A model generated the notes under the pieces. That model was not told the DNA's origin, searched no databases, and saw nothing but the letters and a program-made list of their open reading frames with translations. The translations under genes and the position numbers were made by a program. Below are positions 6,281 through 50,867 of a stretch of DNA of 64,000 nt, piece after piece (positions within the stretch are counted from its first letter, which is position 1; each line of letters opens with the position of its first letter). The DNA is from Modestobacter lapidis (GTDB taxonomy: Bacteria; Actinomycetota; Actinomycetes; Mycobacteriales; Geodermatophilaceae): positions 186,001 through 250,000 of the forward strand of contig JABAKE010000002.1 in assembly GCA_019779905.1 (NCBI GenBank), read 5' to 3'.

Positions 6281-6895
6281 TCAGCGGGCAGCGCCGTCGC
6301 GCTGGACAGCGGTGAAGACCATCTGCAGATTGCTGGCCTGCGCCCGGAAGGCATCGCCCGCCGACGAGGGCAGCGTGACGGTCACCGCGAGGTGGTCGGT
6401 GGCGTCGGCCGCCAGGCTCCGCGGCGCGACGAGAGCGGCGGTGCGCACGACCGGGCCGGAGGCCAGCACGGTGCGGACGTCCCCGTCGCAGGTGGCGCTC
6501 GCCGTCCAGGCGACCGAGCAGGACTCCACGGACATCTGCAGGCCGTTCGTCGCGTCGGTGTCCAGCAGGCTCGACTTCGTGGCCGTGGTGGCGAGGCTGA
6601 CCGAGGAAAGCGCAGAGGTTCCGTCGTTGACCAGATCGACCGGCTGGGTCAGCGAGGACCCCGGCAGCACGCTGCCGAACTCCAGCGGCACGCTCGCCCC
6701 GCCGCCGGCCGCGGCCAGGTCGACCGAGACGACGCCGTTGTCGACCGAGACGACGGCCGGGGTGGTGCTGTCGGTGAAGCTGCCGAAGACCCCGAGGCCG
6801 GCAACGGCGGCAGCGGCGGCGACGACACCGAGCGAGCCGACGACCTTCGCGGTGTTCGTGCGGTGTGCCGTCCGGGGGGTGGGAGTGGTGGTCAC
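6281..6895 (-). CDS. Orphan TasA/CalY-like secreted protein with SipW-type signal peptide
   Basis: A 204-residue secreted protein. After a short basic N-terminus comes a hydrophobic stretch (VVGSLGVVAAAAAVAGLG) followed by FGSFTDST, the hallmark of TasA/camelysin-type substrates of SipW signal peptidases. The mature part is a beta-rich domain with two cysteines in SCSVAWTASATC. It resembles the duplicated proteins at 44370 and 46711 in layout and in this cysteine motif. Start GTG at 6895, with GAGGAG ten bases upstream. No signal peptidase gene is adjacent, so processing probably depends on the SipW-like enzymes near 45-48 kb (inference). The promoter region carries the same 11-bp repeat array as the duplicated genes. 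The GGDEF-EAL gene follows on the same strand. Confidence 0.85.
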   Translation of the reverse strand: MTTTPTPRTAHRTNTAKVVGSLGVVAAAAAVAGLGVFGSFTDSTTPAVVSVDNGVVSVDLAAAGGGASVPLEFGSVLPGSSLTQPVDLVNDGTSALSSVSLATTATKSSLLDTDATNGLQMSVESCSVAWTASATCDGDVRTVLASGPVVRTAALVAPRSLAADATDHLAVTVTLPSSAGDAFRAQASNLQMVFTAVQRDGAAR

Positions 6896-6958: not shown

Positions 6959-7002
6959 GGCAACCGCAGGGCGGCCGCGAGGCAACCGCAAGAAACCCGC
7001 AA
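6959..7002 (-). promoter_or_regulatory. Four tandem 11-bp repeats upstream of the orphan TasA-like gene
   Basis: On the minus strand four contiguous 11-mers read TTGCGGGTTTC (7002-6992), TTGCGGTTGCC (6991-6981), TCGCGGCCGCC (6980-6970) and CTGCGGTTGCC (6969-6959). All keep a GCGG core at one-helical-turn spacing. The array ends 63 bases before the GTG start. A matching array lies at the same distance from the duplicated tasA-like genes. It is probably a binding site for a regulator that contacts one face of the DNA. Confidence 0.65.
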
Positions 7003-7033
7003 GGTGTGCGGCGGCGGCCGTGCCACCGCCGGG

Positions 7034-39367: not shown

Positions 39368-40159
39368 ATGACCCACTCCATCGACACCCCGACACAGCCG
39401 CCGCCCGGCGGAGCCGCCAACGTGTCGACCACCCCGTCGACCAGTGACGTGGCCAAGGACCAGGCGAGCAACGTCGCGTCCGGCGCCGCCCAGGCCGGCG
39501 GCCAGGTCGCCTCGACCGCTGCCGACCAGGCCAAGCAGGTCACCCAGGAGACGAAGCGCCAGGCGCAGGACATGGTCGCCCAGGGCCGCCAGCAGCTGCA
39601 GGAGCAGGCGCGCACCGGTCAGCAGAAGGCCGGCCAGGGGCTGAACGAGATCGCCCAGCAGCTGCGCACCATGGTGCAGGGCGGCGAGACCCCGTCCGGT
39701 CCGGCGGCCGACCTGGTCGCGCAGGCCGGTGACAAGGTGGAGCAGCTGGCCACCTGGATCTCCGACCGCGAGCCCGGCGACCTCGTCACCGAGCTGCGCA
39801 CCTTCGCCCGCCGCAAGCCGGGTGTCTTCCTCCTCGGTGCTGCCGTCGCCGGTGTCGTCGCCGGCCGGTTGACCACCGGTGCCGTCGCCGCGCACAAGGA
39901 CGAGGGCAGCTCGGGCTCGGCCGGGACCGGCGGTTACGCGCAGCCGGCCGTCGCGCCCGTCCCGACGTACGCCGAGGAGGGGTACGCCGGCACCAACTAC
40001 GCCACGGACACCACCGCGACCGGATACGCCGGCGGCACCACCGGGACCACCGGTACCACCGGCTCGGTCCCCCCGCCGCCGTACGGCACCGTTCCCCCGG
40101 CCGGCACCACCGGCGGCTTCGACGACCCGCTGCGCACCGGCGAGGTGGGCCGGCCGTGA
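39368..40159 (+). CDS. Helical repeat envelope-stress protein with one membrane helix
   Basis: A 263-residue protein. Residues 1-125 are rich in Ala, Gln and Lys with an amphipathic repeat (DQAKQVTQETKRQAQDMV, LQEQARTGQQKAGQG) like LEA or apolipoprotein-type helices. A membrane helix follows after RRKPGVFLLGAAVAGVVAGRLTTG at about 153-176. The C-terminal 80 residues are Gly/Thr/Pro-rich (GYAGGTTGTTGTTG) and probably disordered. I do not know its function. ATG at 39368 has GAGGAGG upstream. The next gene starts before its stop (GTGA overlap), so the three genes to 41390 form an operon. Confidence 0.85.
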   Translation: MTHSIDTPTQPPPGGAANVSTTPSTSDVAKDQASNVASGAAQAGGQVASTAADQAKQVTQETKRQAQDMVAQGRQQLQEQARTGQQKAGQGLNEIAQQLRTMVQGGETPSGPAADLVAQAGDKVEQLATWISDREPGDLVTELRTFARRKPGVFLLGAAVAGVVAGRLTTGAVAAHKDEGSSGSAGTGGYAQPAVAPVPTYAEEGYAGTNYATDTTATGYAGGTTGTTGTTGSVPPPPYGTVPPAGTTGGFDDPLRTGEVGRP

Positions 40160-40740
40160 GCACCCCATCCTCCGGCGGGGCGCCCGCTCCGCCCTACGGT
40201 GAGCCGAACTTCACGCAGGGCGGCGCCACGAACTACGCCGCCCCGCCCCCCGGCGCGCAGGGCCCCTACGGCGACTCCCAGCCGATGACCGACGAGGGGC
40301 ACCCCGACATCGAGGGGACCTCGGTCGGCGGGCTCATCGGTGAGGTCACCCGTGACCTGTCGACGCTGATGCGCCAGGAGCTCGAACTCGCGAAGGCGGA
40401 GGTCCGGGCCGAGGCGACCAAGGCCACCGACGAAGTCAAGGCGCAGGCGAGCAAGGCCGGCAAGGGCGCCGGGATGCTCGGTGGCGCCGGCTTTGCCGGC
40501 TACATGGGCGTGCTGTTCCTCTCGATCGCACTCTGGTGGGCCCTGTCGCACCTGGTGGGCCACAGCTGGTCGGCGCTCATCGTGGCCGCGGTCTGGCTGA
40601 TCATCGCCGCCGTCCTCTTCTCGATGGGCCGCAAGAAGCTCAAGCAGATCGACTTCACAGGCCTCAAGCAGGTCAACCCCAAGCCCGAGCGCACCGTGGA
40701 GACCCTCCAGCAGGTGCCCGGCGCTCTGAAGCCCCAGTGA
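40156..40740 (+). CDS. Phage-holin-like DUF1469 membrane protein
   Basis: A 194-residue protein of the Phage_holin_3_6 (PF07332/DUF1469) family. A proline/glycine-rich N-terminus leads to GEVTRDLSTLMRQELELAKAEVR, a conserved amphipathic helix, then two transmembrane helices (YMGVLFLSIALWWALSHLVG, WSALIVAAVWLIIAAVLFSMG). Despite the holin name such proteins belong to chromosomal envelope-stress operons. GTG at 40156 overlaps the upstream stop by four bases. The DUF3618 gene follows after 17 bases. Confidence 0.88.
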   Translation: MSTPSSGGAPAPPYGEPNFTQGGATNYAAPPPGAQGPYGDSQPMTDEGHPDIEGTSVGGLIGEVTRDLSTLMRQELELAKAEVRAEATKATDEVKAQASKAGKGAGMLGGAGFAGYMGVLFLSIALWWALSHLVGHSWSALIVAAVWLIIAAVLFSMGRKKLKQIDFTGLKQVNPKPERTVETLQQVPGALKPQ

Positions 40741-40757
40741 CCGGACAGGAGACCGAC

Positions 40758-41390
40758 ATGACCAGCAGTGACCCGGACGTGATCCGGCGCCAGATCGAGG
40801 ACACCCGTAGCAACCTCAGCTACGACGTGGACGCGCTGAACGAGAAGGTCAATCCGACCCGGGTCGTCGACCGTCGCGTCGGCAAGGCCAAGACCACGGT
40901 GACCGGTCTGAAGGACCGCGTCTTCGGCGCGGCCCACGACACCGGCCAGCAGGCCAGCGGCTCGGCCTCCCACGCCGCCGGCAACGTCCAGGGCGCCGCC
41001 TCCAACGCGCTCGGCACCGTCCAGTCGGCACCGCAGACCATCCAGCGCCAGGCACAGGGCAACCCCCTGGCCGCGGGCGTGATCGCCTTCGGGGTGGGCT
41101 GGCTGGTGTCCTCCTTGCTCCCGACGAGCGAGAAGGAGAAGCAGCTCGCCTCGCAGGCGGAGTCCGCGGTCAAGGAGCACTCGCAGCCACTGGTCGACCA
41201 GGCCAAGAACGTGGCCCAGGAGATCGGCGACAACCTGAAGCCGGCCGCCCAGGAGGCCGTCGAATCGGTCAAGGGCACCGCGCAGGAGGGTGTCGAGACG
41301 GTCAAGTCCGAGGGCCAGTCGGCCACGAAGGACGTCCAGGGCCAGGCCCAGGGCGCGAAGCAGACGGTCCAGGGGCACGCCTCCTCCTGA
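40758..41390 (+). CDS. DUF3618 envelope-stress protein
   Basis: A 210-residue protein. DPDVIRRQIEDTRSNLSYDVDALNEK at the N-terminus is the DUF3618 domain. A single helix near 107-120 (NPLAAGVIAFGVGWLVSSLLP) may enter the membrane. On both sides are Gln/Ala/Lys-rich amphipathic repeats like the first gene of the operon. Function unknown; DUF1469-DUF3618 pairs recur in actinobacteria. ATG at 40758 has AGGAG nine bases upstream. It is the last gene, closed by a strong terminator 13 bases after the stop. Confidence 0.88.
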   Translation: MTSSDPDVIRRQIEDTRSNLSYDVDALNEKVNPTRVVDRRVGKAKTTVTGLKDRVFGAAHDTGQQASGSASHAAGNVQGAASNALGTVQSAPQTIQRQAQGNPLAAGVIAFGVGWLVSSLLPTSEKEKQLASQAESAVKEHSQPLVDQAKNVAQEIGDNLKPAAQEAVESVKGTAQEGVETVKSEGQSATKDVQGQAQGAKQTVQGHASS

Positions 41391-41403
41391 CCGCTCCGCA
41401 CCG

Positions 41404-41435
41404 AACGGCCCCCGTCGCGCTCGACGGGGGCCGTT
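41404..41435. terminator. Terminator of the envelope-stress operon
   Basis: A perfect 14-bp stem, AACGGCCCCCGTCG (41404-41417) / CGACGGGGGCCGTT (41422-41435), with loop CGCT, 13 bases after the DUF3618 stop. Confidence 0.9.
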
Positions 41436-41565
41436 TCGCGTCCACTCCACCTCGACGCCGCCGAGCCCGGCTCCAGCCGGGCGCCCCTCCTGCCGATGTC
41501 CCGGGTGAACGCCACCTGACCGGACCCACCGGTGCAGGGGCACGGAGCGGACGGAGGCGGCGGAC

Positions 41566-41952
41566 GTGGAGTTGCCTGCCCGGGTACTGGTCGCCGACGA
41601 CGAGCCGGACATCCGGCTGCTCGTGACCCTCGCCGTGCGGAAGGCGGGGTGCACGGTCGTCGACTCGGTCGGCGACGGCCTCGCGGCACTCGCCGCGGCG
41701 CGCGCCGAGATCCCCGACCTGCTGGTGCTCGACGTGTCGATGCCCGGCGCGACCGGCCTGGAGGTGTGCGCCGCGCTCCGCGCCGAGCCGGCCACCGCCG
41801 GCTGCCGGGTACTGCTGCTGTCCGCCGGCGCCTCCCCCGCTGACATCGCCCGCGGTCTGTCCGCCGGGGCCGACGCCTACCTGCCCAAGCCCTTTCCGGT
41901 CGCCGGCCTGGTGGCGCAGATCCGCGCGCTCACGTCGGGTGTGCGGGCATGA
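41566..41952 (+). CDS. Single-domain response regulator
   Basis: A 128-residue receiver domain without output domain. Acidic pair D11/D12 in VADDEPDIR, phospho-acceptor D56 in VLDVSMPG, and the lysine in YLPKPF are all present, so it should be phosphorylated. It probably works by protein contact, like CheY-type or stress-cascade regulators. GTG at 41566 has GGAGG upstream. It overlaps the histidine kinase gene by four bases (ATGA), so kinase and regulator form one unit. Confidence 0.9.
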   Translation: MELPARVLVADDEPDIRLLVTLAVRKAGCTVVDSVGDGLAALAAARAEIPDLLVLDVSMPGATGLEVCAALRAEPATAGCRVLLLSAGASPADIARGLSAGADAYLPKPFPVAGLVAQIRALTSGVRA

Positions 41953-43406
41953 CCGCCGTGCTGGACCGGCCCACCGGGTCGCACCACTCCCCCGCACCGG
42001 CGGCGCTCCCCGAGCGGCTGGTGCCCGGGGGGCTGGCCCTGCTCGCGCTGGCCGGGGTACTGGTCCTCGCCACCCGGCCCGGCCACCTCCCCGTGCTGCT
42101 CGCCGCCTGCGCGGCCGTCGTCCTGCCCGTGGCCGATCTCGCCCGACGGCTCCGGGGGCAGCTCGCCACCGCGCGTGAACTCGAGGAGCAGCGGCGCGAC
42201 CTGGTCAGCCGGGGCCGGACCACGGCCGACGAGCTCGAGGTCGCCACCCGGATGATGCGGGCCCGCGCCCAGACCATGACGAGCGTCATCGATGCCGTGA
42301 CCGAGCAGTCGATCATCGGCACCGACCGCGACGGGGTCGTCCGGGTGTGGAACCCGGGCGCCGAACGGATGCTCGGCCTCCCCCGGGCCGAGGTCGTCCG
42401 CATCCGCTCGATCACCGACTTCCACGCGCCCGAGGAGCTCGACGGCGAGACCGGACCCGACCCCGCCCCCGCGCGGCGGGGGGCGAACCGCTTCGCCGCG
42501 CTGGTGGCCGTCGCCCGGGACCAGGGCAGCGACGTCCGCGACTGGACCTATCTGACCGCCGACGGCCGGCGGCTGACCGTCTCCGTGGCCATCACGCCCC
42601 GGACCGACGACGACGGCGAGCAGGCCGGCTGGAACTTCGTCGGCACCGACATGACCGAGGTCCGGGCGGCCGAACGGCTCAAGGACCAGTTCGTCAGCCT
42701 GATCTCGCACGAGCTGCGCACCCCGCTGAGCTCCATCCTCGGCTACCTGGAACTCGTCCTGGACGACGAGGAACAACCGCTCACCGACGACCAGCGGCAG
42801 TACCTGGGCACGGTCGAGCGCAACGCCCAGCGGCTGCTGCGGCTGGTCGGCGACCTGCTGTTCACCGCCCAGGTCGATGCCGGCCGCTTCACGCTGCAGC
42901 CCGAGGACGTCGACCTCGCCGCGATCGTGCGTGCATCGGAGGAGACCGCCCGGGTCACCGCGGCCGCCCGCGGCGTGTCCGTCGCGGTCGCCGTCCCTGA
43001 CGGGGGGCTGGTGGTCCGTGGGGACGCCCTGCGACTGGGCCAGGCCTGCGACAACCTGGTGTCCAACGCGGTCAAGTTCACCCCCGCCGGAGGGCACGTG
43101 ACGCTCCGGCTGGCCCCTGGCTGGCAGGACGACGACGGGCGAGTGACCGCCACCGAGCGGCCCGGCTGCCGTCCGGTCGCCGCGCTGTCGGTCAGCGACA
43201 CCGGCGTAGGCATCCCGGCCGGGGAGCAGGGCCGGCTGTTCACCAGCTTCTTCCGCGCATCGACCGCCCGGCGCAACGCCGTTCCCGGGGTCGGTCTCGG
43301 GCTCACCATCACCAAGGCGATCACCACGGCGCACGGCGGCAGCCTGGACGTCACGAGCGCCGAGGACGCCGGGACGACGTTCACCATGATCCTGCCGGCC
43401 GGCTGA
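41949..43406 (+). CDS. PAS-domain sensor histidine kinase
   Basis: A 485-residue membrane kinase. Two helices near the N-terminus (LALLALAGVLVLATRPG, LPVLLAACAAVVLPVADLA), a charged coiled-coil, a PAS domain (IIGTDRDGVVRVWNPGAERMLG, about residues 110-230), then the HisKA box SHELRTPLSSILGYLELVL with the phospho-histidine, and the ATPase boxes NLVSNAVKFTP, DTGVGIP and GVGLGLTIT. Complete and likely active. Its partner is the receiver gene just upstream, which it overlaps. The stimulus is unknown. Confidence 0.93.
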   Translation: MTAVLDRPTGSHHSPAPAALPERLVPGGLALLALAGVLVLATRPGHLPVLLAACAAVVLPVADLARRLRGQLATARELEEQRRDLVSRGRTTADELEVATRMMRARAQTMTSVIDAVTEQSIIGTDRDGVVRVWNPGAERMLGLPRAEVVRIRSITDFHAPEELDGETGPDPAPARRGANRFAALVAVARDQGSDVRDWTYLTADGRRLTVSVAITPRTDDDGEQAGWNFVGTDMTEVRAAERLKDQFVSLISHELRTPLSSILGYLELVLDDEEQPLTDDQRQYLGTVERNAQRLLRLVGDLLFTAQVDAGRFTLQPEDVDLAAIVRASEETARVTAAARGVSVAVAVPDGGLVVRGDALRLGQACDNLVSNAVKFTPAGGHVTLRLAPGWQDDDGRVTATERPGCRPVAALSVSDTGVGIPAGEQGRLFTSFFRASTARRNAVPGVGLGLTITKAITTAHGGSLDVTSAEDAGTTFTMILPAG

Positions 43407-43419
43407 CCTCTAACCTCAG

Positions 43420-44109
43420 GTGGTGGGAGATCACGAGTGGGTACCAGAGGTGACCCGTGAGGCCATGACCCGCGTTCTCGCGCACGCCGAGAAGGTGGGG
43501 CTGGCCAACACGGAGGAGTTCACCTTCCGCGCCTCCTTCATGTCCGCGGCGCACGACCGGCTCGGGTGCCCGCGTTTCCAGACCGAGTGGCGGAAGTTCG
43601 ACCTGCTCGTCCAGGACGGCGACGTCGCCACCTTGATCGAGTTCAAGTACTACCTGCTGCGTCGCAGCCACGACCTCGACGGGGTTCCCGGTCGGCTCAA
43701 GGGCGGTGCCGGACCGAAGAACGAGGCCGAGTTCAGCGCCTGCCTGGCGAAGTTGCGGAACTCAGTCGTCCCGGGCATCGGAGCGCGGCGGCTGGTCCTC
43801 GTGTACGAACGCGACGACGAACAACCGCGCCTGCGGACGCTGCACCGCAGCTATGGCGGGCTGGCGCCGTCCGGGTCGATCGCCAGGGTCTGGCGCGTTG
43901 CGGTCGGACCGCTGGAAGCACGCGTCCTCGAACCCACTGACCCAGCACCGGGAAGCGGGACATCGCCGGCCGCCGAGCTCCCGGGCGGTGAGGACGCTGC
44001 TGCCCTGTGGGCGGATGGCCGGCACGCCTTCGATCTCCACCCGGACCGGCCTGGCGTGTGCGTCCTGTGCCTGGGCGACCGCGCGGCAGCCGTGCACGCC
44101 ACTCCCTGA
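43420..44109 (+). CDS. Hypothetical protein with PD-(D/E)XK-like core
   Basis: A 229-residue protein I cannot assign to a family. The segment FDLLVQDGDVATLIEFKYYL (about residues 67-86) has the D...E-x-K spacing of restriction-endonuclease-like folds, supported by beta-strand-like flanks and a downstream RRLVLVYERDD strand. No signal peptide or membrane helix. GTG at 43420 or 43423 starts it, 14 bases after the kinase gene, so it may be cotranscribed. Nuclease activity is only a hypothesis. Confidence 0.6.
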   Translation: MVGDHEWVPEVTREAMTRVLAHAEKVGLANTEEFTFRASFMSAAHDRLGCPRFQTEWRKFDLLVQDGDVATLIEFKYYLLRRSHDLDGVPGRLKGGAGPKNEAEFSACLAKLRNSVVPGIGARRLVLVYERDDEQPRLRTLHRSYGGLAPSGSIARVWRVAVGPLEARVLEPTDPAPGSGTSPAAELPGGEDAAALWADGRHAFDLHPDRPGVCVLCLGDRAAAVHATP

Positions 44110-44149
44110 CCGGAGGCAGCCCCACGAGGCGACCCGGATGGCCAACGAG

Positions 44150-44193
44150 GCAGGCACGCTGGCCGCCGTCGCCGGCGGCTGAACGAGAACCCC
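44150..44193 (+). pseudogene. Remnant of a third receiver-gene 3' end
   Basis: From 44159 the sequence CTGGCCGCCGTCGCCGGCGG, then TGA and ACGAGAACCCC, matches the end of the REC-HPt gene at 46474-46508 with only three differences in the last 26 bases of coding and stop, and 19 identical bases (44175-44193 = 46490-46508). The frame is the same (L-x-A-x-A/V-x-x-G-stop). It appears to be what is left of another copy of that gene. Confidence 0.6.
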
Positions 44194-44195
44194 AC

Positions 44196-44257
44196 CCCGG
44201 GCTCCCGTGCGGCGGCCCGCCGCGAGCCTGCGAGCGGTGGGGGGCAAGGGGGCCGTC
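44196..44257. repeat. Dispersed hairpin element, copy 11 (degenerate)
   Basis: CGCCGCGAGCCTGCGAGCGGTGGGGGGCAAGGGGGCC carries the family core, but the left outer arm is degenerate. The left end of the 1504-bp perfect repeat (44221) falls inside this element. Confidence 0.6.
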
Positions 44258-44261
44258 CATC

Positions 44262-44305
44262 TTGCGCTGTTCTTGCGGATCGCTGGCGGGTGGCCTGCGG
44301 TTGGG
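44262..44305 (+). promoter_or_regulatory. Four tandem 11-bp repeats upstream of tasA-like copy A
   Basis: Contiguous 11-mers TTGCGCTGTTC, TTGCGGATCGC, TGGCGGGTGGC and CTGCGGTTGGG start at 44262, 44273, 44284 and 44295. The array ends 64 bases before the ATG at 44370, the same distance as in the orphan gene at 6895. Probable operator of a regulator binding one DNA face. Confidence 0.65.
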
Positions 44306-44369
44306 CCTCCAGAGTCGTCCTTGTCGCCGGGAACACCCGCCGACGAGGACCGACACACCGGAGACCGAC

Positions 44370-44993
44370 ATGAACGCCACCACCACCCGCACCCGCACCG
44401 CCCGCAAGGTCATCGGCTCCCTGGGCATCATCGGCGCCGCAGCCGCCGTCGCCGGCCTGGGCACCTTCGGCACGTTCACCGACAGCACCGCCCCGCTCAA
44501 CGCCACGGTCAACACCGGCACCCTGTCGATCAACCTGAACCCGGCCAACGACACCGGCACCCTGACCATGGCCGCCAACAACTTCGTCCCCGGCGACTCG
44601 CTGTCCCGCTCGGTCACCCTGGTCAACGACGGCACCGCCAACTTCGGCGCCCTGAACCTGACCAGCACCGCCTCCGAGGCCACCAAGACCAGCCTGCTCA
44701 ACACCGACCAGGCCGACGGCCTCAAGCTCACCGTCAAGTCCTGCTCCGTGGCCTGGACCAAGCCCACCGCCACCACCTACGCCTGCTCCGGCACCACCAA
44801 GGACCTCATCAGCGAGCTCCCCGCCGTCGGAACCTTCGGCGTGCCCACCCCGGCCAGCCTCACCGCCGGCGGCACCGACCACCTCGTCGTCACCCTCGCC
44901 CTGCCCACCAGCGCCGACAACGACTTCCAGGGCCTGTCCTCCGCCCTCTCGCTGACCTTCGGCGGCACCCAGGCGAGCGGCACCACCCGCTGA
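44370..44993 (+). CDS. TasA/CalY-like secreted protein, copy A
   Basis: A 207-residue secreted protein. The basic N-terminus and hydrophobic stretch (VIGSLGIIGAAAAVAGLG) lead to FGTFTDST at residues 33-40, the SipW-type signal end. The mature part is Thr/Ser/Asn-rich and beta-like, with two cysteines in SCSVAW...YACSG that could form a disulfide. TasA and camelysin are fibre-forming matrix proteins in Bacillus, so a surface-fibre role is inferred. ATG at 44370 has GGAGA upstream. The signal peptidase gene follows after 44 bases. The protein is identical to the product at 46711-47334. Confidence 0.87.
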   Translation: MNATTTRTRTARKVIGSLGIIGAAAAVAGLGTFGTFTDSTAPLNATVNTGTLSINLNPANDTGTLTMAANNFVPGDSLSRSVTLVNDGTANFGALNLTSTASEATKTSLLNTDQADGLKLTVKSCSVAWTKPTATTYACSGTTKDLISELPAVGTFGVPTPASLTAGGTDHLVVTLALPTSADNDFQGLSSALSLTFGGTQASGTTR

Positions 44994-45037
44994 CCAGCGG
45001 CCCGCCGCCCATCCGCTGACGACACCGAGGACCCGCC

Positions 45038-45727
45038 ATGACCGCCGCCCTGCTGGCGCCCCGCGTCACCCACCCCGGAACCGGGGTCCGCCCACCCCAG
45101 ACCCCGGCGCGGCCCACCACGGACCGCACCCCGGACCGCACCACGGCCCACCCGGACCGCACGGCCCGCAGCACGGCCGGCACGGCACGCACCACCAGCG
45201 GCAAGCGGGCCCTGGCCCACCTCACCCGCTGGACCGTCCGCCTGATGATGCTCGCGGCCATCGCCGTCTTCGCCGGCCTCGCCCTCGGACCCCACGTCCT
45301 GGGCTACCGCACGATGACCATGCTCACCGCCAGCATGGCCCCCGACATCAACCCCGGCGACGTCGTCGTCGTCACCCCCCTCCCCATCTCCGAGGTCCAA
45401 GCCGGGATGGTCATCAGCTACCACATCCCCATCGACGACCACCGCCTCGTCAGCCACCGCGTCCTCTCCGTCGAGACCGCACCCGACGGCGCCGTCACCG
45501 TCCAGACCAAGGGCGACGCCAACGACGCCCCCGACCCCTGGCAGGCCACCCTCCAAGGCGACACCGCCTGGCAGGTCACCGCCGTCATCCCCGAACTCGG
45601 CAACCTCATCCAGGCCCTCCGCACCCCCATCGTCAGCCAAGCCCTCGTCTACGGCGCCCCCGCACTCCTCGCCGGCTGGCTCCTCCTCACCATCTGGACC
45701 CCCACCCGCACCGAGGACCAGCCGTGA
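45038..45727 (+). CDS. SipW-type signal peptidase I, copy A
   Basis: A 229-residue membrane protease. A long Thr/Pro/Arg-rich cytosolic N-terminus precedes a membrane helix (LMMLAAIAVFAGLALG). The nucleophile is S99 in TASMAPDINPGD; the general base is a histidine, H140 in LVSHRVLS, rather than lysine, with acid residues D160/D163 in KGDANDAPDP. This Ser-His type is that of SipW and archaeal or ER peptidases. A C-terminal helix (ALLAGWLLLTIWTP) follows. It should cut the neighbouring TasA-like protein. ATG at 45038 has GAGGA upstream. Its stop overlaps the receiver-gene start (GTGA). Confidence 0.9.
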   Translation: MTAALLAPRVTHPGTGVRPPQTPARPTTDRTPDRTTAHPDRTARSTAGTARTTSGKRALAHLTRWTVRLMMLAAIAVFAGLALGPHVLGYRTMTMLTASMAPDINPGDVVVVTPLPISEVQAGMVISYHIPIDDHRLVSHRVLSVETAPDGAVTVQTKGDANDAPDPWQATLQGDTAWQVTAVIPELGNLIQALRTPIVSQALVYGAPALLAGWLLLTIWTPTRTEDQP

Positions 45728-46497
45728 CCGGCCCGCTGACCGCCCTCGTCGTCGACCCCGACGCCGTCGCCCGCCGCCAGGTGGCCGGGCTGCTGCAGCT
45801 CGGCGGGTGGCAGGTCTGCGAGGCGAGCACCGCCGACCAGGCCCTCGCCGCCAGCGCCACGGTCTCCCCCGACCTCGTCGTCACCGACGTCCTGCTCCCC
45901 GACGGCAGCGGCCCGCAGCTCCTCGGCCGGCTGCGCCGGGCCGGCAGCACTGCCCGCTTCCTCGCGGTCACCGCCGGGCCGACCGCCGCGGTGCGCGCCG
46001 AGTGCCGCACCGCCGGCGCGCTGGCCTGCCTGGCCAAGCCGATCGATGCCCGGCTGCTGCTGGACCTGGTCGAGCGCCGCAGCGCCGGGCCGGTGGCCGA
46101 ACCCGGCACTGCCGCGTCGGCGGGCGCCGACGACCTGCGCGATGACGATCTGCGCGATGACGACGTCGACGACCAGCTCATGGGCCGCCTGCAGGGGATG
46201 TACGACGACGCCCTGCCCGGCCGCCTCACGGCCATCGCCAGCAGCGTGCGGCAGGGCAACACCGCAGCCGTGGCCGCCGCGGCCCAGACCCTGGCCGGCA
46301 CCAGCGGCCAGCTGGGCCACCCCGAGGTGGCCGGCATCTGCCAGGCGATCGCCGCCGACGCCCGGCGCGGCATCCTCGCCCACCACCTGGTCGCCGACCT
46401 CGCCACGGTCGCCCTGTCCGTCGAGACCGCAGCCGGCCGCATCACCGCCGAGCAGCAGCGCTCCCGGCTCCGGCTGGTCGCCGGCGCCCGCGGCTGA
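45724..46497 (+). CDS. Receiver protein with histidine-less HPt-like domain
   Basis: A 257-residue cytosolic protein. The receiver domain is intact: D11/D13, phospho-acceptor D55 (VTDVLLPDG), T83 and K105 (LAKP). An acid linker with two LRDDD repeats (a 15-bp tandem repeat in DNA) leads to a helical C-terminal domain that looks like HPt: QTLAGTSGQLG fits the H-x-L-x-G-[ST]-S-x-x-L-G pattern, but the histidine is Q188. It could therefore bind but not accept a phosphoryl group. It overlaps the sipW-like gene by four bases (GTGA), so it belongs to the tasA-sipW unit. A role in controlling export or expression is inferred. Confidence 0.8.
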   Translation: MTGPLTALVVDPDAVARRQVAGLLQLGGWQVCEASTADQALAASATVSPDLVVTDVLLPDGSGPQLLGRLRRAGSTARFLAVTAGPTAAVRAECRTAGALACLAKPIDARLLLDLVERRSAGPVAEPGTAASAGADDLRDDDLRDDDVDDQLMGRLQGMYDDALPGRLTAIASSVRQGNTAAVAAAAQTLAGTSGQLGHPEVAGICQAIAADARRGILAHHLVADLATVALSVETAAGRITAEQQRSRLRLVAGARG

Positions 46498-46544
46498 ACG
46501 AGAACCCCGCCCGGCTCCTGGGCGGGGGTGTCGTCGCCCCGGCC

Positions 46545-46599
46545 CCCGTGCAGGGGCCCGTCGCGAGCCTGCGAGCGGTGGGGGGCAAGGGGGCCGTCC
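46545..46599. repeat. Dispersed hairpin element, copy 12
   Basis: CCCCGTGCAGGGGCCCGTCGC, then GAGCCTGCGAGCGGTGGGGGG and CAAGGGGGCC. It lies after the receiver gene stop and forms the left edge of repeat copy B. Confidence 0.65.
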
Positions 46600-46602
46600 A
46601 TC

Positions 46603-46646
46603 TTGCGCTGTTCTTGCGGATCGCTGGCGGGTGGCCTGCGGTTGGG
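46603..46646 (+). promoter_or_regulatory. Four tandem 11-bp repeats upstream of tasA-like copy B
   Basis: The same four 11-mers as at 44262-44305, 64 bases before the ATG at 46711. Confidence 0.65.
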
Positions 46647-46710
46647 CCTCCAGAGTCGTCCTTGTCGCCGGGAACACCCGCCGACGAGGACCGACACACC
46701 GGAGACCGAC

Positions 46711-47334
46711 ATGAACGCCACCACCACCCGCACCCGCACCGCCCGCAAGGTCATCGGCTCCCTGGGCATCATCGGCGCCGCAGCCGCCGTCGCCGGCCTG
46801 GGCACCTTCGGCACGTTCACCGACAGCACCGCCCCGCTCAACGCCACGGTCAACACCGGCACCCTGTCGATCAACCTGAACCCGGCCAACGACACCGGCA
46901 CCCTGACCATGGCCGCCAACAACTTCGTCCCCGGCGACTCGCTGTCCCGCTCGGTCACCCTGGTCAACGACGGCACCGCCAACTTCGGCGCCCTGAACCT
47001 GACCAGCACCGCCTCCGAGGCCACCAAGACCAGCCTGCTCAACACCGACCAGGCCGACGGCCTCAAGCTCACCGTCAAGTCCTGCTCCGTGGCCTGGACC
47101 AAGCCCACCGCCACCACCTACGCCTGCTCCGGCACCACCAAGGACCTCATCAGCGAGCTCCCCGCCGTCGGAACCTTCGGCGTGCCCACCCCGGCCAGCC
47201 TCACCGCCGGCGGCACCGACCACCTCGTCGTCACCCTCGCCCTGCCCACCAGCGCCGACAACGACTTCCAGGGCCTGTCCTCCGCCCTCTCGCTGACCTT
47301 CGGCGGCACCCAGGCGAGCGGCACCACCCGCTGA
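46711..47334 (+). CDS. TasA/CalY-like secreted protein, copy B
   Basis: A 207-residue protein identical to the product at 44370-44993, including signal peptide, FTDST end and the two cysteines. Being the same in sequence and in promoter array, it would simply raise the dose of the protein, unless the copies are in different transcripts. ATG at 46711 has GGAGA upstream; the second signal peptidase gene follows after 44 bases. Confidence 0.87.
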   Translation: MNATTTRTRTARKVIGSLGIIGAAAAVAGLGTFGTFTDSTAPLNATVNTGTLSINLNPANDTGTLTMAANNFVPGDSLSRSVTLVNDGTANFGALNLTSTASEATKTSLLNTDQADGLKLTVKSCSVAWTKPTATTYACSGTTKDLISELPAVGTFGVPTPASLTAGGTDHLVVTLALPTSADNDFQGLSSALSLTFGGTQASGTTR

Positions 47335-47378
47335 CCAGCGGCCCGCCGCCCATCCGCTGACGACACCGAGGACCCGCC

Positions 47379-48086
47379 ATGACCGCCGCCCTGCTGGCGC
47401 CCCGCGTCACCCACCCCGGAACCGGGGTCCGCCCACCCCAGACCCCGGCGCGGCCCACCACGGACCGCACCCCGGACCGCACCACGGCCCACCCGGACCG
47501 CACGGCCCGCAGCACGGCCGGCACGGCACGCACCACCAGCGGCAAGCGGGCCCTGGCCCACCTCACCCGCTGGACCGTCCGCCTGATGATGCTCGCGGCC
47601 ATCGCCGTCTTCGCCGGCCTCGCCCTCGGACCCCACGTCCTGGGCTACCGCACGATGACCATGCTCACCGCCAGCATGGCCCCCGACATCAACCCCGGCG
47701 ACGTCGTCGTCGTCACCCCCCTCCCCATCTCCGAGGTCCAAGCCGGGATGGTCATCAGCTACCACATCCCCATCGACGACCACCGCCTCGTCAGCCACCG
47801 CGTCCTCTCCGTCGAGACCGCACCCGACGGCGCCGTCACCGTCCAGACCAAGGGCGACGCCAACGACGCCCCCGACCCCTGGCAGGCCACCCTCCAAGGC
47901 GACACCGCCTGGCAGGTCACCGCCGTCATCCCCGAACTCGGCAACCTCATCCAGGCCCTCCGCACCCCCATCGTCAGCCAAGCCCTCGTCTACGGCGCCC
48001 CCGCACTCCTCGCCGGCTGGCTCCTCCTCACCATCTGGACCCCCACCCGCACCGAGGACCAGCCGGACGGCGGGCAGCGGGCATGA
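47379..48086 (+). CDS. SipW-type signal peptidase I, copy B
   Basis: A 235-residue copy of the Ser-His signal peptidase. Residues 1-229 match copy A (S99, H140, D160/D163), but the C-terminus differs: after EDQP it continues DGGQRA instead of stopping, because the repeat ends here. Its stop overlaps the start of the secreted-protein gene at 48083 (ATGA), while copy A overlaps a receiver gene. So the two peptidases are coupled to different downstream partners. Confidence 0.9.
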   Translation: MTAALLAPRVTHPGTGVRPPQTPARPTTDRTPDRTTAHPDRTARSTAGTARTTSGKRALAHLTRWTVRLMMLAAIAVFAGLALGPHVLGYRTMTMLTASMAPDINPGDVVVVTPLPISEVQAGMVISYHIPIDDHRLVSHRVLSVETAPDGAVTVQTKGDANDAPDPWQATLQGDTAWQVTAVIPELGNLIQALRTPIVSQALVYGAPALLAGWLLLTIWTPTRTEDQPDGGQRA

Positions 48087-48550
48087 CCGCCACCCGACGC
48101 ACCCTGGTGCTGCTCGCCGCGCTCGTCGCGGTCGTCCTCGGCACGACGCCGGCCATGGCCGCCTTCAGCGGGAAGAGCCCCGCGCTCGCCGCGACCGTCG
48201 GCACCGTCGAGGTCGCCGCACCGACCGACCTCAGGACCGGCGGCACCAGGTGCTGGACCACCACCTACACGGTGAGCTACAACGGCGTCACGACCACACG
48301 CGCCTCCACGACGATGCGGGCCAAGCTGTCGTGGCAGGCCAGCAGCACGCCGCGGGTCACCAGTTACGTGATCACCGCCTACCTGGGGGGCGGCAAGATG
48401 GAGGTCACCGAGGTTCCCGCCTCCATCACCTCGGTCACCGAGAACGTCGACGGCGACTACGCCGACGCGAACATCCGGGTCACCGTCACCGCCAAGACCG
48501 ACTACGGCTGGACTGCCGAGTCCCAGAAGTCAGGAATCATCACGTGCTGA
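48083..48550 (+). CDS. Secreted fibronectin-III-like protein of the duplicated locus
   Basis: A 155-residue secreted protein. The signal peptide (RRTLVLLAALVAVVLGTTPAMA) ends near AMA-AFSGKSP. The mature part is Thr/Ser-rich with a W...SYVITAYLGG and a late YADANIRVTVTAKTDYGW pattern reminiscent of a fibronectin type III fold, and two cysteines (near residue 57 and the last residue). It is coupled by ATGA overlap to the second SipW-like gene and overlaps the receiver remnant. It occurs only in unit B. A substrate or partner of the matrix system (as TapA is for TasA) is plausible but unproven. Confidence 0.75.
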   Translation: MTATRRTLVLLAALVAVVLGTTPAMAAFSGKSPALAATVGTVEVAAPTDLRTGGTRCWTTTYTVSYNGVTTTRASTTMRAKLSWQASSTPRVTSYVITAYLGGGKMEVTEVPASITSVTENVDGDYADANIRVTVTAKTDYGWTAESQKSGIITC

Positions 48551-48714
48551 CCGCCCTGATCGTCGACACCGACACGGCCGCCCGCCGCGGCGACCTCGCC
48601 TGGCTCGCCCGGGACGCCCACCGTGGGGCCTCGACCCACGACCTGCTGGACCAGTTCGCCGACCTGGCGCACGCCGCCGAGGCCGCGGCCCGCCGCAGGG
48701 CGGTCGGTCGCTGA
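48544..48714 (+). pseudogene. Internally deleted receiver/HPt gene
   Basis: A 56-codon frame starting GTG at 48544. Its first 15 residues (LTALIVDTDTAARRG) match the start of the REC-HPt protein at 45724 (LTALVVDPDAVARRQ), and its last 40 (DAHRGASTHDLLDQFADLAHAAEAAARR) match the end (DARRGILAHHLVADLATVALSVETAAGR). About 190 codons in between are missing, including the phospho-acceptor. The start overlaps the stop of the secreted-protein gene (7 bases), so it may still be translated as a mini-protein. Confidence 0.7.
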
Positions 48715-48734
48715 GCACCACCGAGGACGACGAG

Positions 48735-48778
48735 ACGCACAGTGCCCACCCCGGAGGACCGGGATGGGCACTGTGCGT
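48735..48778. terminator. Bidirectional terminator after the duplicated locus
   Basis: A perfect 14-bp stem ACGCACAGTGCCCA (48735-48748) / TGGGCACTGTGCGT (48765-48778), with a CCCCGGAGGACCGGGA-like loop. It closes the plus-strand locus and the convergent minus-strand regulator gene. Confidence 0.88.
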
Positions 48779-48809
48779 TCGGACGGGGCGAGTTCGGGGG
48801 TGCGGGGCG

Positions 48810-49514
48810 TCAGGCCACCAGCCGGTAGCCCACCCCGCGGACCGTGCGGATCTCGGGTGAGTGCAGCCCGGCTGCGGTGAGCTTGCGGCGCAGGTTGGAC
48901 ATGTGTGCCTCGACCAGGCGGAGGTTGCCCTCCCAGTCGGTCTGCCAGACCTCACGCAGCAGGGTCTCGCGCTGCAGCACCCGCCCGGGGCGGGAGACCA
49001 GGGCGGCGAGCAGGTCGAACTCGGTGCGGGTCAGGTCGACGGCCGAGCCGTCGACCCGCACCTCGCGGCTGTCGGGGTCGACCTCGAGCTCGGCCAGCCG
49101 CCGGACGGAGTCCTCGACCGCGGGTCGCGGCACGGGCACCGAGGGAGTGCGCGGCCGGCGCAGCATGGTCTGCACCCGCGCCACCAGCTCGCGCGGGGAG
49201 AAGGGCTTGGCCATGTAGCCGTCGGCGCCGACGGCCAGCCCGATGAGCAGGTCGACCTCCTCGGCCCGGGCGGTGAGCATCAGCACGTAGCAGTCGGTCT
49301 CGGCGCGCAGCTGGCGGCACACCTCGGTGCCGTCGGCGTCGGGCAACCCGAGGTCGAGGACGACGACGTCCGGGGCCGACCGGCGGACCTCCTCGAGGCA
49401 GGCGGCACCGGAGACGACCTCGCGGACGTCCATCCCGGCACGGCGCAGCACGGTCACCACCAGTTCACGGATCTCGTCGGTGTCCTCCACCACGAGCACG
49501 GACTGGCCGGACAC
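48810..49514 (-). CDS. OmpR/PhoB-type response regulator
   Basis: A 234-residue regulator. Receiver with VVEDTDEIR, phospho-acceptor in VVLDLGLPD (about residue 52), LTARAEEVD and MAKPFSPRELV; then a winged-helix DNA-binding domain (VRVDGSAVDLTRTEFDLLAAL, LREVWQTDW, VEAHMSNLRRKL, IRTVRGVGYRL). It should activate or repress genes when phosphorylated. No kinase gene is adjacent. GTG at 49514 has GGAGGAG upstream, which fixes the start. It converges on the TasA/SipW locus and is a candidate regulator of it through the 11-bp arrays, since OmpR-type proteins can bind tandem sites with about one-turn spacing (inference). Confidence 0.92.
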   Translation of the reverse strand: MSGQSVLVVEDTDEIRELVVTVLRRAGMDVREVVSGAACLEEVRRSAPDVVVLDLGLPDADGTEVCRQLRAETDCYVLMLTARAEEVDLLIGLAVGADGYMAKPFSPRELVARVQTMLRRPRTPSVPVPRPAVEDSVRRLAELEVDPDSREVRVDGSAVDLTRTEFDLLAALVSRPGRVLQRETLLREVWQTDWEGNLRLVEAHMSNLRRKLTAAGLHSPEIRTVRGVGYRLVA

Positions 49515-49627
49515 GGCTCCTCCTCCACACGACGACGTCGGATGCCTTGCTGGCGTCCTGGAGGAGATGTCGTCACCGCGGGATCGCAACTTGCACCGGG
49601 ACACCGCCCGGGTCCCCCGAACGGGTG

Positions 49628-49687
49628 AAGGACCCCCTTTCCCCGCACCCCTCGCAAGCTCGGGGCGGGCCCCTGAATGGGGGGCCT
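49628..49687. repeat. Dispersed hairpin element, copy 13
   Basis: AAGGACCCCCTTTCCCCGCACCC, CTCGCAAGCTCGGGGCGGGCC and AATGGGGGGCC form the usual structure; the outer stem CCCCCTTT / AATGGGGG has one mismatch. It begins at the acyl-CoA dehydrogenase stop. Confidence 0.7.
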
Positions 49688-50867
49688 AGGCGAAGGCGCT
49701 GAGACCGGTGATCGAGCGGCCGACGATGAGGGTGTTCATCTCCCGGGTGCCCTCGTAGGAGTAGAGCGCCTCGGCGTCGTTGAAGTACCGGATGACGTCG
49801 TGGTCGAGCACGATGCCGTTGCCGCCGAGCAGCTCGCGGGCCCAGGCCACGGTCTCCCGTCCCCGGCTGGTCACGTAACCCTTGGCCAGCGCCGCCTGGT
49901 CGTCGCGCAGAACGTCCTGCTCCTGCAGCTGGGACAGCCGCACCGTCATCCCCATGCTGGCGGTGACGTTGCCCAGCATCCGGGCGAGCAGGTCCTGGAC
50001 CAGCTGGAACCCGGCGATCGGCCGGCCGAACTGATGGCGTTCCTTCGCGTAGGCCAGCGCCACCTCGTAGGCGCCCACCTGGCAGCCGACCCCGCTCCAG
50101 GCCACCCCGCCGCGGGTCACCTTGAGCACCTTGTTCACGTCCTTGAACGAGTTGCCGCCCTCGAGCTTGGCCTCGGCGGGGATGCGGCAGCCGGTGAACG
50201 CGAGGTCGGCGTTCTGCACCGTGCGCAGCGCGAACTTGTCCTCGATCTTGGTGGCGGTGAAGCCGGGGGTGCCCTTCTCCACCAGGAAGGTCTTGACCTG
50301 GTCGTCGGCGACGTCGCGGGCGAAAACGACGACGACGTCGGCGAAGGTGCCGTTGCCGATCCAGCGCTTGGCGCCGTCCAGCACCCACGAGTCGCCGTCC
50401 CGCCGGGCGGTGGTGCGCATCCCGCGGGCGACGTCGGAGCCGCCCTCGGGCTCGGTGAGACCGAAGGCGCCGATGGCCTCCAGCCGCATCATCGCGGGGA
50501 TCCAGCGCTGCCGCTGCTCCGCGGAGCCGAGCACCATGATGGAGCCCATCGCCAGGCCGTTGTGCACGCCGAGGAAGGTGGCCATCGACGGGTCGACGCG
50601 GGACAGCTCCATCGCCTGGAAGCCGGTGAACAACCGGGACGCCCGGGGGCGGCCGTCCCAGTCGTAGGAGCGTCCGACGATGTCGGCCTCGGCGAAGCGC
50701 GGGATCAGGTCCATCGGAAACTCGGCCGCCGCCCAGGCCTCGTTGACCCGGGGCCTGACCTCGGTGGTGAGGAACTCGCGCAGCGCCAGCAGCTCCTTCT
50801 GCTCGTCCTCGGGCAGCAGGGTCTCGAAGCCGAAGAAGTCGGCCGGCAGCAGCAGGTCGGCGGTCAT
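49686..50867 (-). CDS. Acyl-CoA dehydrogenase (glutaryl-CoA dehydrogenase-like)
   Basis: A 393-residue FAD enzyme. FGLTEPEGGSDVA binds FAD and substrate; WVLDGAKRWIGNG follows; the catalytic glutamate is in YSYEGTREMNTL near residue 370; and VGRSITGLSAF at the end resembles glutaryl-CoA dehydrogenases (YEGT...GRAITGIQAF in the family). It takes two hydrogens off an acyl-CoA; a glutaryl-like substrate is likely but not certain. ATG at 50867 precedes the conserved N-terminus; a longer reading is unlikely. A hairpin element follows. Confidence 0.9.
   Translation of the reverse strand: MTADLLLPADFFGFETLLPEDEQKELLALREFLTTEVRPRVNEAWAAAEFPMDLIPRFAEADIVGRSYDWDGRPRASRLFTGFQAMELSRVDPSMATFLGVHNGLAMGSIMVLGSAEQRQRWIPAMMRLEAIGAFGLTEPEGGSDVARGMRTTARRDGDSWVLDGAKRWIGNGTFADVVVVFARDVADDQVKTFLVEKGTPGFTATKIEDKFALRTVQNADLAFTGCRIPAEAKLEGGNSFKDVNKVLKVTRGGVAWSGVGCQVGAYEVALAYAKERHQFGRPIAGFQLVQDLLARMLGNVTASMGMTVRLSQLQEQDVLRDDQAALAKGYVTSRGRETVAWARELLGGNGIVLDHDVIRYFNDAEALYSYEGTREMNTLIVGRSITGLSAFA

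Follow-up and report, generated by a model that had tools for sequence, protein, structure and literature searches.

A 64,000-nt stretch of Modestobacter lapidis DNA (hereafter the window, to which all coordinates refer; its own genome is labelled G000) carries what we read, with a probability of about 0.6, as a TasA-type surface-fibre (matrix) regulon of the Geodermatophilaceae, equipped with its own two-component system, a four-half-site operator and a feedback protein, REC-HPt, in which a receiver domain is joined to a histidine-phosphotransfer-like domain. Two elements are new here: the four-half-site operator, and the pattern of phospho-site loss in REC-HPt with an invariant glycine at position H+4. 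The whole feature exceeds the interval 44150-48778 in which a sequence-only reading had placed an export system for fibre or matrix proteins, and extends from a single-domain receiver and a histidine kinase (41566-43406) to an OmpR-type regulator (48810-49604, minus strand). The genes proposed in that reading (TasA-like, SipW-like with a Ser-His pair, REC-HPt, Fn3-like and an orphan TasA-like gene) are all present, and its pairing of a SipW-type peptidase with likely TasA-type substrates, including an orphan substrate at 6281-6895 on the minus strand, is upheld.

Two units on the plus strand form the core of the locus. Unit A (44370-46497) comprises a TasA/camelysin-family secreted protein (44370..44993), a SipW-type signal peptidase (45038..45727) and the REC-HPt protein, where Gln188 takes the place of the phospho-His (45724..46497). 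Unit B (46711-48714) comprises a TasA-like copy with DNA identical to copy A (46711..47334), a SipW-like copy differing from copy A in its last codons (47379..48086), an Fn3-like secreted protein that is a candidate second SipW substrate (48083..48550), and what is left of a second REC-HPt gene, 56 codons in frame (48544..48714; 43-nt repeat, 86%). Genes overlap at GTGA (SipW-A/REC-HPt), ATGA (SipW-B/Fn3) and GTGCTGA (Fn3/REC-HPt remnant), and the first of these, which includes the SipW-A stop, bears out the earlier claim that a receiver protein is built into the operon by overlapping translation. The operators are at 44261..44300 (operator A, four half-sites with an 11-bp period, followed by a -10-like box CAGAGT at 44310..44315, at a fixed spacing of +49 from the operator start), at 46602..46641 (operator B) and, on the minus strand 5' of the orphan TasA-like gene (6281..6895, minus), at 6964..7003 (operator C, with 0 mismatches to the 40-bp pattern). 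Upstream on the plus strand, the receiver gene REC1 (41566..41952; Pfam Response_reg 1.4e-24) overlaps the gene of the PAS histidine kinase, HK (41949..43406; HisKA 2.1e-20, HATPase_c 1.3e-24, PAS 1.1e-7), and the OmpR/PhoB-family response regulator (48810..49604, minus; Response_reg 2.2e-27, Trans_reg_C 1.2e-25) is the likely operator-binding partner of HK.

The operator has a rigid geometry. An ungapped alignment places four half-sites (consensus CTTGCGG) at offsets 0, 11, 22 and 33, ending 9 bp before the -10-like box. The double half-site CTTGCGG-N4-CTTGCGG is found with at most two mismatches in all 53 TasA upstream regions (35 of them exact) compared with 2 of 1,060 shuffles, and the operator sits 99-119 nt before the TasA start codon in these regions; NANNNT, mostly CAGAGT, occurs at +49 in 51 of the 53, with counts of 0 or 1 at neighbouring offsets. 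In G000 the double half-site, exact or with one mismatch, gives 7 matches in four arrays (reversed-pattern control, 5), while the 40-bp pattern with up to three mismatches gives exactly 4, with 0 in the control. Two of these four arrays are at units A and B, a third is at the orphan TasA gene and the last at a conserved microprotein open reading frame (ORF).

The array follows the signalling genes across the genus and the family. With up to three mismatches the 40-bp array has 26 matches in 14 of 23 genus genomes (reversed-pattern control, 1), and these are the same 14 that carry HK. A regulator at least 91% identical to that of the window is present in 15 of the 23; arrays occur in 14 of these, the exception being a genome that is 72% complete, and in none of the eight without it. 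In a sample of the order, 34 of 51 family genomes had the array; outside the family it turned up in 2 of 247 genomes, as a simple repeat in each, against 3 control matches spread over two non-family genomes. Across our family set of 112 genomes the exact double half-site occurs at 141 sites in 75 genomes (14 control matches), with 69 of the 81 genomes with HK having it versus 6 of the 31 without (Fisher p 9e-11, among related genomes). Even where TasA and SipW are absent the operator may be retained, standing 93-234 nt before the REC-HPt/HPt match in six of eleven (G038, G042, G048, G049, G052 and G059); none was found before that match in SipW-less G041, G047, G050, G051 and G056.

It seems improbable that the operator is bound by a regulator other than the neighbouring OmpR-type one. 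These genomes hold many OmpR-type regulators, and binding by the neighbour is a prediction. Against another regulator stand the distribution of arrays within the genus described above and the position of the regulator gene, which in most loci follows the operon on its 3' side and in two g9 genomes comes straight after HK. The form of the site argues in the same direction, as direct repeats with an 11-bp period are usual for sites of the PhoB/OmpR family.

The gene order around these operators is conserved among relatives. We compared 60 loci from 59 genomes, plus 20 more, and the usual order is REC1 - HK - TasA - SipW - Fn3 - REC-HPt, facing the OmpR-type regulator, with REC1 upstream of HK in most loci and with variants in Geodermatophilus and relatives that carry a second TasA and Fn3 further down. 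HK homologues (E<=1e-90) are present in 81 of the 112 family genomes and SipW of this type in 68. A consistent absence of the receiver gene from orthologous loci, which the sequence-only reading had named as grounds for giving it up, is not what is observed, since 62 of the 68 SipW genomes have a REC-HPt or HPt-only homologue, in all 62 cases in the same locus. Six of the 62 carry the HPt-only form, without a receiver domain. Conversely, eleven genomes without SipW retain either REC-HPt (G038, G048, G049, G051, G052, G059) or HPt-only proteins (G041, G042, G047, G050, G056), adjoining HK in all but G050. In a collection of named genomes we found 55 REC-HPt loci, all under Geodermatophilaceae names except two with doubtful labels (an unverified Bacillus sp. 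AZ43 and a Frankiales bacterium). In an order sample of 397 genomes, those outside the family yielded no REC-HPt at E<=1e-25, in a search that scored just the top few preliminary candidates of each genome and could have missed distant forms.

The TasA-like protein of the window matches Pfam Peptidase_M73 (E=1.8e-12, 48 bits against a cut-off of 22.5), and both copies were recovered in a whole-genome search; the orphan, 44% identical to the main TasA, was absent from the M73 matches of that search. A profile of 37 relatives matches solved TasA chains (8aur, 4.3e-6; 5of1, 4.4e-6) and, weakly, the archaeal bundling protein AbpX (E 0.07). The AlphaFold2 model (mean pLDDT 75.6, residues 1-52 poor) has as its top Foldseek rows 5of2 (E 2.1e-4) and 5of1 (E 8.9e-4), with prob 1.00 and a TM-score of about 0.5. 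The Bacillus TasA equivalog NF046066 scored 18.3 bits against a cut-off of 450; by that model the window protein is a relative of Bacillus TasA and not an ortholog. Other families of the class have M73 genes as well; in the sample, 31 of 246 genomes (G000 included) carry them.

We regard these proteins as predicted extracellular fibre subunits, and find it unlikely that they are instead surface proteins that do not polymerise, or a protease resembling camelysin. The Pfam model does take its name from camelysin, a peptidase, TasA evolves fast (dN/dS 0.51-1.30 by NG86, with biased codon use), and the fibres are a prediction. Set against this are the profile matches to solved TasA chains and, weakly, to AbpX, the pairing with SipW, and the N-terminal segment that would serve as donor strand, in which Phe36 and Thr37 are invariant.

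The peptidase matches TIGR02228 (E=1.9e-16, 60.3 bits against a cut-off of 51.85) and remains below the cut-off of the Bacillus SipW equivalog NF046067 (52.3 bits against 190; E 5.2e-14); its catalytic pair, Ser99 and His140, is kept in 50 of 51 relatives. Phe36 falls at the putative P2' position in 52 of 52 TasA-like proteins. In the Fn3-like protein, the second residue after AxA is aromatic in 33 of the 35 relatives that have that region. According to an excerpt of published work, ordinary signal peptidase I handles TasA poorly on account of a Phe at P2' (PMC10269814), and on that basis both the TasA-like and the Fn3 proteins are plausible SipW substrates, with the exact cut site a prediction. 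The Fn3 assignment itself comes from Pfam fn3 (E=0.01 in the window copy, 1.4e-8 in the best relative, matched in 6 of 26 relatives) and from a profile that matches fibronectin structures at 2.7e-10; in this comparison of sequence with profile, 34 PDB sequences were matched, with no TapA chain among them.

The receiver domain of the window REC-HPt is intact (Response_reg E=3.4e-17; Asp11, Asp13, Asp55 and Lys105), and Gln188 replaces the phospho-His. As to the helical HPt-like domain described in the sequence-only reading, Response_reg and Hpt were both matched in 30 of 30 aligned relatives (Hpt E<=0.1, best 2.4e-9) and helices are predicted over residues 145-256, while the window copy itself falls below the Hpt cut-off (E=7.5e-4, 20.1 bits against 24.6). 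The structural model shows a receiver and a helical C-terminal part (mean pLDDT 88.1, pTM 0.53); the fold-search rows of the whole protein were filled by the receiver domain. For the tree and residue counts we used 73 rows, one best match per fetched locus, leaving out G047, whose match was too weak, and second paralogues of REC-HPt in some g3/g4 genomes; the HPt segment of G032, on a separate match, was scored missing, and the in-frame stop of the G038 copy, from a metagenome-assembled genome, was set to X. The phospho-His is present in 26 of 72 rows and lost in 46, the phospho-Asp present in 46 of 62 and replaced in 16, and the receiver missing altogether in 11 of 73; among 61 full-length proteins, 18 have both phospho-sites intact and 9 have neither. 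A quick tree, many of whose branches are weak, requires a minimum of 7 changes for His, 7 for Asp and 4 for receiver presence. The H+4 Gly of the HPt domain is kept in 72 of 72 and H+3, canonically Lys, is Ala in 72 of 72. The substituted copies are under purifying selection: five Modestobacter pairs lacking the Asp gave dN/dS values (NG86, biased codon use) of 0.22-0.49, similar to the 0.24-0.44 obtained for four further pairs.

For REC-HPt, a docking or feedback role within the two-component system is more likely than that of a phospho-switch controlling export. Because REC-HPt or HPt-only proteins sit behind HK in genomes without SipW, they appear tied to the kinase/regulator module, not to export. 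The sequence-only reading had proposed phosphorylation-linked control of secretion, with the receiver protein acting directly on TasA secretion or processing. The translational overlap of REC-HPt with SipW or Fn3, and their common locus in every genome that has both, would fit such a role; that the protein persists in the absence of SipW, that the receiver or its Asp is often missing and the His lost in most rows, and that six SipW genomes have no REC-HPt make it very unlikely, and we rejected REC-HPt as a secretion regulator. It is also unlikely, if less so, that REC-HPt functions in a phosphorelay linking HK to the regulator, or as a phosphate sink between them, its substituted copies representing lineage-specific decay or the use of other residues. 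The proteins with Asp and His both intact favour this, as do the g3 (Blastococcus) sequences, which keep His in 14 of 15 scorable rows and Asp in 16 of 16, and the window copy, which retains Asp55, Lys105 and the acidic pocket. The repeated changes on the tree, the selection acting on substituted copies, the persistence of HPt-only forms and the invariant Ala in place of the H+3 Lys all speak against it. It is important to note that, as an excerpt of a study of yeast Ypd1 ties the H+4 Gly more to phosphotransfer than to affinity (PMC6341664), the invariance of this residue is no proof of docking alone. By eye, a 97-aa ORF in another genome (L266, at G049:C41, about 78.8 kb), preceded by an operator-like array with three mismatches, resembles the REC-HPt linker and the start of HPt.

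Several observations weigh against the regulon as we read it. Its central link, between regulator and operator, is predicted from neighbourhood and from co-occurrence among related, non-independent genomes, and five genomes with HK and divergent loci (G041, G042, G046, G047 and G056) have no exact double half-site. Half of the 28 M73 genes that are not near SipW have no exact operator. The structural match of TasA is modest (TM-score about 0.5, E 2e-4). Six of the 68 SipW genomes (G053, G077, G079, G083, G084 and G104) have no REC-HPt/HPt homologue, and the proteins with both phospho-sites intact (18 of 61) are mostly from Blastococcus, where phosphotransfer may matter. Lastly, extracellular amyloid is reported for Geodermatophilus obscurus G-20T in an excerpt of PMC3035280, and genome G048, which we take as that strain, has neither TasA nor SipW at the locus and a degenerate orphan site; the TasA of the locus as the source of that amyloid is thus unsupported.

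The operator predicts further members of the regulon. Among the 141 exact family sites, 51 precede M73 matches near SipW (by 113-168 nt) and 14 precede M73 matches elsewhere. Another 76 are not upstream of M73; the 40 of these that we fetched included 14 TasA-like genes, five ORFs of a 37-aa type and one related ORF of 32 aa, two sites with an Fn3-like gene further down, and 18 that were other or unclear. In G104 a site with three mismatches also precedes a 32-aa ORF. The G000 representative of the microprotein (L094:1564-1677, G000:C184 near 326967) is a conserved, acidic ORF of 37 aa with the operator upstream. The distance from the -10-like box to its ATG is 6-7 nt in six genomes, one of which has a version extended to 63 aa; the transcript would then have no leader, and the ORF is probably a leaderless gene. 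Counted pairwise, differences at the three codon positions number 50, 78 and 153, as expected of a protein that is under selection.

A GGDEF-type gene stands beside the microprotein ORF in six of seven loci examined, and the linkers of several REC-HPt proteins from Modestobacter contain, by eye, an EVEDL-like stretch that is also in the microprotein. In the Blastococcus group, three loci (L140, L142 and L147) show the operator followed by ORFs of 63-64 aa with a TasA-like signal region, which are possible small secreted members of the regulon. A GGDEF/EAL-type gene, identified by translation motifs, also lies in the window at 4134-6116 (minus), on the same strand as the orphan TasA-like gene and 165 nt downstream of it; a link to c-di-GMP is possible.

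Units A and B of the window descend from a tandem duplication: 44221-45724 and 46562-48065 are identical over 1,504 bp, with zero mismatches. The duplication is recent, or the copies have been kept alike by conversion, and it has been followed by complementary loss, unit A being without Fn3 and unit B without a complete REC-HPt. In each of six genomes with two TasA copies per locus, the copies are nearest to each other compared with any TasA of other genomes in the set. A perfect 1.5-kb repeat within a draft assembly of 383 contigs might be taken for an assembly artefact; this is extremely unlikely here, as the two copies have different genes on the 3' side and different sequence on the 5' side, and G060 and G110 (L067 and L086) independently show within-locus TasA copies that are 100% and 99.8% identical at the DNA level. 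These near-identical pairs reflect either recurrent duplication or gene conversion. Between HK and unit A there are a short ORF (44138..44182, plus) that resembles a REC-HPt 3' end and is probably a remnant of one, with a 40-nt repeat of 90% identity to 46473-46512, and a 229-aa ORF (43420-44109, plus) with no Pfam or NCBIfam match and no counterpart in the searched loci of relatives. A riboswitch or other structured RNA in the leader was considered and dropped, there being no notable Rfam match in 40000-50000 (the sole row has E=0.85, at 40724).

From the computed protein families, conserved locus, operator and promoter geometry, regulon members, phospho-site loss and purifying selection, we infer regulator binding, activation, processing, fibre assembly and feedback along the following lines. 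HK (41949) and the OmpR-type regulator (48810) would respond to a signal, upon which the regulator would bind the four tandem half-sites immediately 5' of a -10 box lacking a -35 element of its own, and activate three targets: the TasA-SipW-(Fn3)-REC-HPt operon, the microprotein ORF and the orphan TasA-like gene. SipW would mature the TasA-like proteins and probably the Fn3 protein too, which could serve as a TapA-like accessory, and the mature proteins would assemble at the surface via donor-strand exchange. Co-induced REC-HPt may then act back on the two-component system, either as an adaptor that docks or as a competitor (a pseudo-HPt), with phosphotransfer through it dispensable in most lineages. 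It is tempting to extend this to a matrix regulon that is family-wide, in which one dedicated two-component system, by way of the four-half-site operator, drives combinatorial TasA-type subunits and a non-phosphotransfer REC-HPt feedback protein, and the leaderless acidic microprotein tunes this module; we hold this broader proposal as tentative, and on balance doubtful.

The locus has in common with the Bacillus tapA-sipW-tasA operon the sequence and fold of the TasA family, an adjacent Ser-His peptidase of SipW type, overlapping genes and an accessory secreted protein. It differs in its order (TasA-SipW-Fn3), in an accessory that is Fn3-like, with no TapA among the 34 matched PDB sequences, and in having its own two-component system and operator, REC-HPt, and an orphan TasA and a microprotein under the same operator; the Bacillus matrix operon is regulated by SinR/SlrR and Spo0A. 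Archaeal bundling pili (AbpA/AbpX) have a TasA-related fold, AbpX gave the weak profile match above, and we know of no operon or regulation common to them and the Geodermatophilaceae locus. PhoB/OmpR-family operators likewise consist of direct repeats with an 11-bp period near a -10 box, while here there are four half-sites of CTTGCGG type and the regulon is restricted to a lineage. The tasA-calY-CapP filaments of Bacillus cereus, as presented in an excerpt of PMC13082335, are alike in having at least two TasA-family subunits and an assembly factor and in being sortase-independent, and differ in signalling module and operator. Plant AHP6, a pseudo-HPt that inhibits by competing with functional HPt proteins, and the pseudo-response regulators offer a parallel of an HPt fold without the phospho-His and a receiver without the phospho-Asp (PMC7402358, in excerpt). 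This comparison concerns how the proteins work, and in the present case both domains are in one protein within a bacterial operon of matrix genes. Among the matches listed in the open-licence literature we found no paper joining TasA with the Geodermatophilaceae and no description of this system, and for TasA together with Modestobacter the matched excerpts gave only one mention of TasA, in a soybean metagenome.

TasA-type matrix fibres have been studied almost only in Bacillus. The locus described here offers a testable matrix regulon in actinobacteria of stone, desert crust and soil that tend to aggregate, and it comes with an operator, a candidate regulator, substrates and a processing enzyme. 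REC-HPt in turn constitutes a natural series, in which phospho-sites and the receiver come and go while the HPt-like core and the docking glycine stay, and which could show directly whether docking by itself is enough for a phosphorelay fold to signal.

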